Position numbers and translations under genes: made by a program. The notes under the pieces are model-generated. The model worked only from the letters and a program-made list of their open reading frames with translations, did no database searches and had not been told where the DNA came from. From the NCBI RefSeq assembly GCF_003335585.1, contig NZ_QBFD01000022.1:193081-257080 (forward strand): a DNA stretch of 64,000 nt, read 5' to 3'. This document shows, in pieces, positions 1,169-10,282 of the stretch; within the stretch, counting starts at the first letter, position 1; the number at the start of each line of letters is the position of its first letter. The DNA is from Sulfitobacter sp. DFL-14. Its GTDB lineage: Bacteria > Pseudomonadota > Alphaproteobacteria > Rhodobacterales > Rhodobacteraceae.

Positions 1169-1199
1169 TGTGATCACACGGATATTTTGTGTGATCACA
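1169..1199. promoter_or_regulatory. paired TGTGATCACA palindromes upstream of sdhC
   Basis: Two exact copies of the 10-bp palindrome TGTGATCACA at 1169-1178 and 1190-1199, centres 21 bp apart, i.e. two helical turns. The same word with the same spacing occurs upstream of sucC (10252-10282). This looks like a cooperative operator for a dimeric regulator of TCA genes. The regulator is not identifiable here: GntR-family (GT..AC) and CRP-like proteins are possible, but the spacer-less half-sites do not fit a standard CRP box. Confidence 0.75.
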
Positions 1200-1430
1200 G
1201 ACCTGCGACTCACGCGCCCATTTTGACGTCAGACCTGTGCCTGATGTCATGCCGGGTGCATTCCCGCAGGTAATGTCAGCGGATAAAGCCGCCATCGCGA
1301 TGGTGCCGCGCCAGCGCCCCCAGGCGCCCGCCCGGGTGCCAAGCGGTTCCGGCCACAACCAGACCTGCGCTGTGAGACGCGCGAGGGTCCGCTATGCGGG
1401 ACTTCGTTGCCGTTGATCATTGGCAACCAA

Positions 1431-1598
1431 AGCCCGGAACAAGCCGAAGGCGCCGGGCCATCGCCTGCCCGCCCCACGGGTAGGCGATTTGGTGAGGCTG
1501 GGTATTCCCTCGTTAGGATTCATCATGGTTGAGAAATAAAGTGGCATGAACATAGGTCGGCATCGCCCACCCCGGGCAGGCGCTGGCCCGGCTTGCGC
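1431..1598 (+). repeat. dispersed intergenic repeat, family A, copy 1
   Basis: A structured intergenic repeat also found at 63715-63930 (same orientation) and, in part, at 23829-23912 (opposite strand). Shared blocks are a GCCCGGAACAAGCCGAAGG start, CCATCGCCTGCCCG, GGTAGGCGAT, the core GAGAAATAAAGTGG and an end with CCCCGGGCAGGCGCTGGCCC. The internal blocks pair with each other, so the transcript could fold. No coding potential is evident. It lies in the 746-base gap between the sdhC promoter and the mdh terminator. Confidence 0.7.
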
Positions 1599-1757
1599 CT
1601 CATGTCACTCCGGGCTCTTTCCCGCCGTTCGCAGCATTTTTCACGAATGTCCGCTTGGCCCCCGCCCCCTCCTTCGGACATGGCGCCGCGCTCTGGGTCA
1701 GCGAAGTGACGCAAAGGTCGGTTTTGCCTGGCCATGACACCATACGCCCCAAACGCA

Positions 1758-1787
1758 AATGCCCCCGCAGATATCTGCGGGGGCATT
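1758..1787 (-). terminator. 30-bp perfect palindrome downstream of mdh
   Basis: A perfect 15+15 inverted repeat (arm AATGCCCCCGCAGAT) located 46 bases after the mdh stop. In the mdh direction it is followed by ATTTGCGTTT, a weak T-rich tail, so it is a likely intrinsic terminator for mdh. Confidence 0.7.
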
Positions 1788-1832
1788 GCACATCATCCTG
1801 CCAGACCAAAGCGGCTGGCGTCTCTCCGCCAA

Positions 1833-2795
1833 TCAGCTCAGGCTGCTGTCGATGCCCTTGCAGGCGTCGACCAGGCCTTTGACCGCCTTGACGGAATTGT
1901 CGAACATCGCCTGTTCGTCCTTGTTCATGGAAATCTCCACAACGCGCTCCACGCCGCCTGCGCCGATCACTGTCGGCACGCCAACATAGAAACCGTCCAG
2001 ACCATAGGCGCCGTCCACATAGGCCGCGCAGGGCAGGACGCGTTTCTGGTCTTTCAGATAGCTTTCGGCCATCTCGATGGCGCTGGTCGCGGGCGCATAA
2101 AAGGCCGAACCGGTCTTCAGCAGGCCCACGATCTCGGCGCCGCCATCACGGGTGCGCTGCACGATCGCATCCAGTTTCTCCTGGCTTGTCCAGCCCATCT
2201 TGACCAGATCCGGCAGCGGGATGCCGGCAACGGTGGAATAGCGCACCAGCGGCACCATCGTGTCGCCATGGCCGCCCAGCACAAATGCGGTGACGTCTTT
2301 CATCGACACGTTGAACTCGGAGGCAAGGAAATGCCGGAAGCGCGCCGAATCAAGCACGCCCGCCATGCCGCAGACCTTTTCATGCGGCAGGCCGGAGAAT
2401 TCGCGCAGCGCCCAGACCATCGCGTCCAGCGGGTTGGTGATGCAGATCACGAAAGCGTCGGGCGCATGGGCCGCAATACCCTCGCCCACGGATTTCATGA
2501 CCTTGAGGTTGATGCCCAGCAGGTCGTCGCGGCTCATCCCCGGTTTGCGGGCGACACCGGCGGTCACGATGCAGACGTCGGCACCGGCGATATCGGCGTA
2601 ATCCTGCGTTCCTGACAGGGTCGCATCGAACTTGCCCGCCGGGCCCGATTCCGCGATGTCCAGTGCTTTGCCTTCTGGCGTGCCTTCCGCAATGTCGAAA
2701 AGAACGACATCGCCCAGTTCCTTCAGTGCTGCGAGGTGTGCAAGTGTACCGCCGATTTGCCCCGCGCCAATCAGCGCGATTTTGGGTCTGGCCAT
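1833..2795 (-). CDS. mdh: malate dehydrogenase (NAD)
   Basis: A 320-residue LDH-like malate dehydrogenase that interconverts malate and oxaloacetate in the TCA cycle. The Rossmann glycine motif GAGQIG is at 10-15, and Asp34 ends the second strand, as expected for NAD specificity. Substrate residues are Arg83 and Arg89 in the mobile loop and Arg152; the catalytic pair is Asp149 and His176 in GGHGD. Arg83 rather than Gln in the loop marks malate, not lactate, as substrate. It stands alone on the minus strand with its own terminator-like palindrome, but belongs to the surrounding TCA cluster. Confidence 0.97.
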   Translation of the reverse strand: MARPKIALIGAGQIGGTLAHLAALKELGDVVLFDIAEGTPEGKALDIAESGPAGKFDATLSGTQDYADIAGADVCIVTAGVARKPGMSRDDLLGINLKVMKSVGEGIAAHAPDAFVICITNPLDAMVWALREFSGLPHEKVCGMAGVLDSARFRHFLASEFNVSMKDVTAFVLGGHGDTMVPLVRYSTVAGIPLPDLVKMGWTSQEKLDAIVQRTRDGGAEIVGLLKTGSAFYAPATSAIEMAESYLKDQKRVLPCAAYVDGAYGLDGFYVGVPTVIGAGGVERVVEISMNKDEQAMFDNSVKAVKGLVDACKGIDSSLS

Positions 2796-8489: not shown

Positions 8490-8503
8490 TTGATCAGGAT
8501 CAA
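8490..8503. promoter_or_regulatory. perfect FNR/FnrL box upstream of uspA
   Basis: TTGATCAGGATCAA matches the FNR-family consensus TTGAT-N4-ATCAA exactly. It ends 58 bases before the stress-protein ATG, a normal place for activation by an oxygen-sensing FnrL or a Dnr-type regulator. The downstream gene is therefore likely induced at low oxygen. Confidence 0.8.
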
Positions 8504-8561
8504 TGTGGCGTGTGCAAAAGGGGTCTAGCTTCTTCGTGAACAACGCGAAGGAGAAGACATC

Positions 8562-9002
8562 ATGTTCAGCACAATCCTGGTAGCATACGACGGGTCGGAC
8601 CACGCCGACAACGCCCTGAAACTGGCCGCGGGGCTGGCCAAGACACACGGCGCGGCACTGCACGTTGTACACACACCGCAACTCGACAGCCCGCCCATCG
8701 TGCTGGGTGCCTATGTCAGCCAGTTGGACATGCCCCCGTCAAAGGAACAATACGAGGAGGTCGGTCGCAAGATGATCGAAAAGGCGCGGCAGGTTGCACA
8801 GGCCGCAGGTGCCGGGGACATCCAAGGGCACATCGGCAGGGGCGCGCCCGCAGACTTTATCCTGTCGACGGCCAAGAAGATCGACGCCGACCTGATCATC
8901 CTGGGTCGGCGCGGGCTGGGGGCAATCCGGTCCATCGCGCTGGGGTCCGTCAGCAACGCGGTGGCCCACGGGGCGCAATGCCCCTGCATGACCGTGATCT
9001 GA
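8562..9002 (+). CDS. universal stress protein UspA family
   Basis: A 146-residue single-domain Usp. Asp10 in VAYDGSD and the ATP motif G-2x-G-9x-G-S (Gly115, Gly118, Gly128, Ser129) are intact, which marks the ATP-binding subclass. Usp proteins help survival under energy and oxygen limitation. An AAGGAG site precedes the ATG, and the FNR box at 8490-8503 indicates low-oxygen induction. The gene is monocistronic. The 232 bases after it (9003-9234) hold no feature I can support. Confidence 0.92.
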   Translation: MFSTILVAYDGSDHADNALKLAAGLAKTHGAALHVVHTPQLDSPPIVLGAYVSQLDMPPSKEQYEEVGRKMIEKARQVAQAAGAGDIQGHIGRGAPADFILSTAKKIDADLIILGRRGLGAIRSIALGSVSNAVAHGAQCPCMTVI

Positions 9003-9234
9003 CCGACAATCCCCCACACATCGGACCAGCCACCCGATGCGCAGTTCCCGCGCATCGGGTACCGAATTGCCGACGCGACACCAAAGGCGTGACGATTACA
9101 TACAGCGCATCTTTGAGTGCAACGGAAGGTCCGGCATGCGTCAGGCGGGCGCACAGGCGCCCCCCGGCCATTTTCCCATTGCATTCTGCCTGCACAGCAC
9201 TTTCCCTGTACCGGACCCTGCAGGAGGCCCAGAC

Positions 9235-10122
9235 ATGACCCGCCGAAAACTCTACCTCGGTGCCCTGACCGACAACCGCCGCTGGGACAGTGTCAAAATC
9301 CGCCCCGACGACGTCATCGTCGCCTCCCCGCCGAAATGCGGCACCACCTGGATGCAGACCATCATCGCCCTGCTGTTTTCCGGCGACCCCGATGTCGAAA
9401 CCGCAGTGGCCCTCCGGATGCCATGGGTCGACATCCGCCTGCGCGAACTGCCGGAGGTGGCCGCACGGCTCGAAGCCATGACCTGCCGGCGCTGCCTGAA
9501 AAGCCACACGCCGATGGACGGTCTGCCGTTGGATGACCAGGCGCAATACATCTGCGTCTTCCGCCACCCGCTGGATGCGCATTTCTCCTACCGCAAACAC
9601 CTGCGCAACATCCCCATGCACCTGCTCGACTTCTGGTATCCGGAGGATGACCCCGACGGCACCACCTTCTGCCGCTTCCTGGACGGCGGGGCCGAGGGCT
9701 TCGATACCGATGCCATGCCGCTCGCGCATATCCTGCAGCACTACAAGGCCGCCACCGCCCTCGCTGACCGCCCCAATGTCGCGCTGTTTCACTATGCCGA
9801 CATGACCCGCGACCTGCCCGGCACCTTTGCGAGGGTGGCCGGGCTGCTGGGCATATCGCACCCCGCCGCCCTGATGGAGGCGTTGATCCAGGCCGCCACC
9901 TTCGACAACATGAAAGCCCATGCCGCGCGGTATGCACCGGGCGGCGGCACCGGTTTCATGAAGAAGGACTCCGATTTCTTCCACAGCGCCAGTGGCGGCA
10001 AATGGATCGGCAAGCTCAGCGATGCCGAACTGGCCGCCTATGACGACATGATGGACGCCCATCTCGGGCCACAGGACCGCGCCTGGCTGGAGCACGGCGC
10101 GCAGGGCCGTTCCGCCGGATGA
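9235..10122 (+). CDS. sulfotransferase domain protein (PAPS-dependent type)
   Basis: A 295-residue sulfotransferase; the start at 9235 follows CAGGAGG. The 5'-phosphosulfate loop SPPKCGTTWMQ is at 31-41. The 3'-phosphate motif VFRHPLDAHFSYRKH lies near 114, and a C-terminal GGKWIGKLSDAE matches the family's conserved terminal loop. It resembles cytosolic aryl/alcohol sulfotransferases that move sulfate from PAPS to a hydroxyl or amine. The acceptor is unknown. It sits alone between the stress protein and sucC, with no PAPS-synthesis gene nearby. Confidence 0.85.
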   Translation: MTRRKLYLGALTDNRRWDSVKIRPDDVIVASPPKCGTTWMQTIIALLFSGDPDVETAVALRMPWVDIRLRELPEVAARLEAMTCRRCLKSHTPMDGLPLDDQAQYICVFRHPLDAHFSYRKHLRNIPMHLLDFWYPEDDPDGTTFCRFLDGGAEGFDTDAMPLAHILQHYKAATALADRPNVALFHYADMTRDLPGTFARVAGLLGISHPAALMEALIQAATFDNMKAHAARYAPGGGTGFMKKDSDFFHSASGGKWIGKLSDAELAAYDDMMDAHLGPQDRAWLEHGAQGRSAG

Positions 10123-10251
10123 CAGATGGCGCGGCGCGGCCCCGGGGCACAGAATCCCCGCGGCCCGCGCCGAACCCCAAGGGGGTAAAAAGTGAACTCC
10201 AGACCCGGGTTCACCCATATTTCATTGACATCCGCTTAAAGTCGCCGATTT

Positions 10252-10282
10252 TGTGATCACACCTTTTCCGCGTGTGATCACA
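10252..10282. promoter_or_regulatory. paired TGTGATCACA palindromes upstream of sucC
   Basis: Two exact TGTGATCACA copies at 10252-10261 and 10273-10282, centres 21 bp apart: the same word and spacing as the pair upstream of sdhC. The pair ends 112 bases before the sucC ATG. It is a likely operator controlling the suc genes together with sdhCDA. Confidence 0.75.

Follow-up and report, generated by a model that had tools for sequence, protein, structure and literature searches.

Why does one and the same pair of short palindromes stand upstream of two separate sets of genes, those of succinate dehydrogenase (complex II) and of succinyl-CoA synthetase, and which protein would read it? The window examined here (the whole 64,000-nucleotide stretch of Sulfitobacter sp. 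DFL-14, contig NZ_QBFD01000022.1, positions 193,081 to 257,080) contains one such pair before sdhC and another before sucC. We consider it highly probable that two dimers of AkgR, a regulator of the GntR family with an FCD domain, use each pair as their operator; this protein is predicted to bind both operators and to activate sdhC and sucC together.

Paired palindromes upstream of sdhC and sucC

A word search of the whole window detected TGTGATCACA exactly at 1169, 1190, 10252, and 10273, and no fifth exact copy within the window. The two copies of each pair lie 21 bp apart from centre to centre, the 11-bp spacers of the sdhC and sucC pairs are unlike each other, and the half sites adjoin without a gap in all four copies. 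The sequence-only reading had described this arrangement, twice before each gene with equal spacing, unlike spacers and no further copy in the window, and the word and pair searches agree with it. When up to one mismatch was allowed, nine matches were found in the window, compared with 1.34 expected, a number reached in none of 100 shuffles. The start codon of sdhC is 157 bp away from its pair, and that of sucC (ATG at 10395) is 112 bp away from its own.

In the genome of the same organism (5.70 Mb in 47 contigs), the exact word occupies seven places, four of which are the window pairs, and the reversed-pattern control gave one. Two of the other three copies are within coding open reading frames (ORFs), of an Smr-domain protein and a multicopper oxidase, and the last lies 8 bp ahead of the first codon of a gene for a GntR/FCD protein; outside genes, the word thus occurs at only three loci of the assembly, namely sdhC, sucC, and the regulator gene. 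A search for the 21-bp pair that tolerated up to three mismatches found just two places in this genome, sdhC and sucC (control 0), and the genome showed no 20-bp pair.

Conservation of the pair and of its spacing

The sequence-only reading had proposed a search of related Rhodobacterales, with lack of conservation as the outcome that would speak against a shared regulator. Such a lack was not seen, and the paired layout is conserved at sdhC and sucC through most of a family sample of 246 genomes from 245 genera (one for nearly every genus, each with a completeness of 90% or more). The 21-bp pair (up to three mismatches) was detected in 219 of these genomes, and its control in 3 of 246. A class sample of 289 genomes, 5 from the family of the window and 284 others, gave five matches, in four of the five family genomes and in one of the 284 others (G371, with one mismatch).

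An exact pair scan of a collection of named genomes retrieved at least 118 loci, and the matches listed comprise 121 exact pairs, 96 of them upstream of sucC, 22 upstream of sdhC, and 3 elsewhere (two near a locus end beside a gene that is often divergent from sucC, and one 150 bp before sucA). The outer flanks of these exact pairs are kept (TT before and AA after), and the spacer much less so. The 80 titles among the matches listed are mostly Rhodobacterales, with exceptions that include 'Robiginitomaculum', 'Maritalea mobilis', and 'Nocardioides marinus'. Since the gene adjoining the site in these three genomes matches the SucC of the window at 82-94%, a wrong label or a mixed bin is likely. 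In two relatives, the pair stands directly upstream of sucA and not of sucC (L131, 150 bp; L178, 134 bp).

The spacing of the pair is nearly fixed. Among the matches listed in a search of 90 genomes for GTGATCAC pairs with centres anywhere from 10 to 40 bp apart, 63 of 75 pairs had a 21-bp spacing and 4 a 20-bp spacing, the other 8 being distributed over 12, 18, 24, 27, 31, and 36 bp. We also collected operators from many genomes, admitting spacings of 20 or 21 bp only and up to three mismatches, most loci having been found through the same pattern; within this definition, 81 of 107 sdhC and 153 of 174 sucC operators have the 21-bp spacing and the rest that of 20 bp, and conservation is 99-100% at every base of GTGATCAC in either copy. 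The 20-bp pair (up to three mismatches) was found in 54 of the 246 family genomes, with 6 for its control. A concerted switch of spacing between both promoters of one genome was considered and rejected, as 34 of the 43 family genomes (of 246) with a 20-bp pair at up to two mismatches also contain a 21-bp match at up to three. Two loci have rows of three partly degenerate palindromes at 21-bp steps (G175:C6:255056-255107 and G157:C4:99450-99501).

Co-occurrence of the pair with a GntR/FCD regulator

The gene with the lone word before its start (G000:C15:206309-206956, outside the window) encodes the candidate regulator. Its GntR and FCD domains (PF00392, 3e-13; PF07729, 2.5e-17; both over the cut-off) place the protein in the FCD (FadR) subfamily of the GntR family. 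The best 120 of 6991 matches to it are 87-100% identical. Among the named genomes with the pair, an orthologue was detected in 23 of 24 searched, at 67-91% identity and with the next paralogue at no more than 41%; the remaining genome is the 'Robiginitomaculum' bin.

In the family sample, a match with E up to 1e-20 was found in 233 of 246 genomes and one with E <1e-70, a cut-off for orthologues that was chosen after the gap in the match list had been seen, in 225; eight genomes have weaker matches and 13 none at 1e-20. Orthologue and 21-bp pair occur together in 214 genomes, the regulator only in 11, the pair only in 5, and neither in 16 (p=4e-14). When pairs of 20 or 21 bp are counted, the corresponding numbers are 223, 2, 5, and 16 (p=6e-19). 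The leader of sucC is readable in 8 of the 11 regulator-only genomes and contains a 20-bp pair in all eight, and a ninth (G169) has a 20-bp pair at sdhC. Among ten sdhC leaders of genomes with the orthologue and no 21-bp pair, five have a 20-bp pair (G050, G169, G120, G008, and G063).

Genomes free of the orthologue had the pair in none of 15 examined sucC loci. Among the 14 sucC leaders that could be read, two contain a single imperfect word each, no GTGATCAC was present in the sucC locus of G049 (whose start was not located), and no word was found even at up to two mismatches in 14 sdhC leaders of such genomes. Shared ancestry is a caveat on these co-occurrence statistics. The conservation at both genes, together with the co-occurrence of the regulator, strongly supports the claim of the sequence-only reading that one regulator links succinyl-CoA synthetase with complex II.

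The site at the start of the regulator gene is itself recurrent: with no more than one mismatch allowed, 46 of the 53 orthologue loci (the 30 best of the family-sample search and 23 from named genomes) have it, compared with 0 of 7 paralogue loci of relatives. This comparison also bears on the idea that another GntR paralogue of the same genome binds the pairs, for which there are 22 FCD matches in the genome to choose from, and related GntR proteins can share GTGATCAC (excerpts of PMC6365646). The exact 10-bp word stands at the gene start in only one of these 22 loci, and a paralogue 37% identical to the regulator (E up to 1e-70) is found in 65 of 246 family genomes, compared with 219 of 246 for the 21-bp pairs, the other 20 FCD genes not having been profiled. 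We therefore regard binding by a paralogue as very improbable.

Probable assignment to AkgR and comparison with known systems

A protein 70% identical to the regulator (P0240) carries the NCBI label 'AgkR', which presumably stands for AkgR. We take RSP_0981 of Rhodobacter sphaeroides to be AkgR; a 2015 mBio paper by Imam and others is said to report direct activation of several tricarboxylic acid (TCA)-cycle genes by AkgR. Excerpts of PMC4344238 give predicted control of sucCD, sdh, and odh by RSP_0981, a GntR protein, and those of PMC6365646 give GTGATCAC as the site motif of AkgR, term AkgR a transcriptional activator, and add that the motif may be common to related GntR proteins. Because of the co-occurrence of regulator and pair, the published targets of RSP_0981, the GTGATCAC motif, and the 'AgkR' label, the factor, to which the sequence-only reading had given no name, is very likely AkgR, with a likely orthologue encoded elsewhere in this genome.

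The sequence-only reading had allowed for a GntR-type or a CRP/FNR-type factor, and its GntR half very likely holds. Sites of CRP/FNR proteins follow the consensus TGTGA-N6-TCACA or TTGAT-N4-ATCAA, and TGTGA and TCACA of the present palindromes resemble the CRP half sites. However, in all four copies these half sites abut, and the 6-bp gap of the CRP consensus is missing. The word moreover travels with the GntR gene (CRP/FNR genes were not searched for in the genome), and CRP-like proteins are not predicted in R. sphaeroides according to the excerpts of PMC4344238. A CRP/FNR-type factor on these palindromes thus appears extremely unlikely.

The regulon is already known, and the species is new. 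As in the AkgR (RSP_0981) regulon in the excerpts of PMC4344238 and PMC6365646, a GntR regulator, GTGATCAC palindromes at the target promoters (here four exact copies), and sucCD and sdh as targets come together, the latter in the window as well as in 118 of the 121 exact named-genome pairs listed; the difference is the organism, here a Sulfitobacter-like species (the closest row of the SucC tree is Sulfitobacter brevis). Paired operators of AkgR, helix-turn phasing at sdhC, and a site at its own gene start were not met in the literature searched, which consisted partly of excerpts and had the primary AkgR paper outside it. GntR proteins of the PS417_07240 type, from deoxyribonate oxidation clusters of Pseudomonas and Burkholderia, share the GTGATCAC palindrome by their own start codon (-47 to -40) and are reported to be 32% identical to AkgR; unlike here, one site is reported for them, with other genes and another pathway. 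The best match of the regulator to a solved structure, with most of the protein aligned, is McbR (PDB 4p9f, E 2e-19). The targets of McbR differ from those of the AkgR candidate.

Promoter geometry and proposed mechanism

In a first set of leaders, the element GTGAC was found between the operator and the sdhC start in 21 of 23, compared with 3.2 expected in shuffles, and in a larger set it lies 25-95 bp from the operator in 92 of 107 sdhC leaders (15 are without it). When the 92 leaders are aligned on GTGAC, a -10-like element of TA type appears 16 bp after GTGACA (T 0.87, A 0.83), suggesting a -35 and -10 promoter. The 95 operator-to-GTGAC offsets fall at 56-60 (73), 46-47 (4), 68-70 (8), 77-80 (7), and 36 (1), with strays at 50 and 85. 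Nineteen of the 22 offsets outside the main cluster are within 2 bp of whole 10.6-bp steps (fraction expected by position, 0.36; p=2e-6), a pattern that is suggestive only, because the period of 10.6 bp was picked post hoc and ancestry was not corrected for. In sucC leaders, the word [GC]TTTA is most frequent at an offset of 44-45, where fewer than half of the 174 have it.

This geometry also matters for the possibility that the same GntR regulator represses sdhC and sucC until a metabolite releases it. Many GntR/FCD proteins are repressors, and the site at the regulator's own gene, 8 bp ahead of the start codon, has a repressor-like placement. Nevertheless, the pairs do not overlap the predicted sdhC promoter but precede it, with the -35 element mostly 56-60 bp away, and AkgR is termed a transcriptional activator in the excerpts of PMC6365646. 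Joint repression is accordingly improbable in our view, though less so than the other alternatives considered above.

In the mechanism that we favour, with AkgR as joint activator, the candidate protein would bind each of the two operators as a pair of dimers that sit two turns apart on the same side of the helix and help each other; the fixed spacing of two turns agrees with such cooperative binding. From their distant position, which the predicted promoter puts about 100 bp ahead of the sdhC transcription start in most relatives, the dimers might contact RNA polymerase, and such contact would account for operator-promoter distances that differ by whole turns. The lone site at its own gene start might give negative autoregulation, because binding there would block initiation. 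We see even chances for a fuller model in which AkgR is a helix-locked double-dimer activator: the unit would slide along the promoter in whole turns only, so that the sdhC operator-promoter distance evolves by steps of about 10.6 bp (36, 46-47, 56-60, 68-70, 77-80), the operator would toggle between 20 and 21 bp, and the lone own-start site would close a negative feedback.

Several observations weigh against AkgR as the common activator. The other five of the ten sdhC leaders mentioned above are pairless. No pair was found alongside the orthologue in two genomes, namely G056, in which neither gene was found, and G178, in which the 5' end of sucC is missing and sdhC has no site. Conversely, five have a pair match without the orthologue: G105 (G105:C82) has two clean pairs and no detected AkgR orthologue, which may reflect an assembly gap or replacement by another regulator, G106 has two chance-like matches with three mismatches each, and G018, G185, and G225 are known from the count alone. 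The own-start site, at up to one mismatch, is absent from 7 of the 53 orthologue loci, including those of Rhodobacter ruber and Gemmobacter. In a 42-row tree of SucC, with labels on 40 rows, presence and absence require seven changes on the best tree, two of them forced by well-supported branches; this tree gives no independent test, because its rows were picked for agreement between regulator and site (the discordant named locus L060 is not among them) and the supported changes are too few. Orthology with RSP_0981 is argued from label, family, motif, and targets, and the direction of regulation, that is activation, is not readable from the DNA. A generic sigma-70 promoter scan returned nothing in either leader of the window, and 97 sucC leaders scored no better for sigma-70 than shuffled ones (7.51 compared with 7.55).

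For a large, mostly aquatic family, these results name a switch that succinate dehydrogenase and succinyl-CoA synthetase probably share, and its operators follow a compact rule. If the phasing is functional, the family would constitute a natural series of spacing variants for GntR activation of RNA polymerase from far upstream.

Gene context in the window

The coordinates of the palindromes, predicted promoter elements, and target genes are given in Table 1. The genes sdhA and sdhB follow sdhD beyond the left edge of the window.

Table 1. Putative operators, predicted promoter elements, and neighbouring genes in the window.
Feature	Position	Strand	Basis or remark
Palindrome 1, putative sdhC operator	1169..1178		Exact TGTGATCACA; downstream copy relative to sdhC
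Palindrome 2, putative sdhC operator	1190..1199		Exact TGTGATCACA; centre 21 bp from first
Palindrome 1, putative sucC operator	10252..10261		Exact TGTGATCACA
Palindrome 2, putative sucC operator	10273..10282		Exact TGTGATCACA; centre 21 bp from first
GTGACA, predicted sdhC -35	1085..1090	-	78 bp from operator
TATCAC, predicted sdhC -10	1063..1068	-	16 bp after GTGACA
sdhC	628..1011	-	Pfam Sdh_cyt; NCBIfam succ_dehyd_cytB
sdhD (second Sdh_cyt subunit gene)	246..617	-	Pfam Sdh_cyt; name from place after sdhC
sucC	10395..11588	+	NCBIfam ADP-forming succinate--CoA ligase subunit beta (ORF from 10368)
sucD	13911..14798	+	Pfam CoA_binding, Ligase_CoA
sucA (odhA)	16190..19153	+	Pfam E1_dh, OxoGdeHyase_C, 2-oxogl_dehyd_N
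sucB	19157-20686	+	After sucA

A lone site with one mismatch is located at 15723, 457 bp 5' of the sucA start, and chance alone yields such sites. An ORF of 293 amino acids at 1734-2615 has no Pfam match; in many named loci, its relatives stand next to the paired operator, oriented divergently from sucC, and there they may share that operator. The window also contains a second GntR/FCD gene (57902-58288, minus strand), whose examined locus has no GTGATCAC.

The interval of about 2.3 kb between sucC and sucD includes a methyltransferase ORF (12793-13587) and an ORF of no assigned family (12278-12796), and the 1.4-kb interval between sucD and sucA has no Pfam match. The sucC, sucD, and sucA genes, here separated by the sequence at 11589-16189, are more tightly spaced in some relatives. 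To the left of the window, an ORF of the FkbM methyltransferase family lies between sdhA and sdhB (L025 7358-8158, minus strand).

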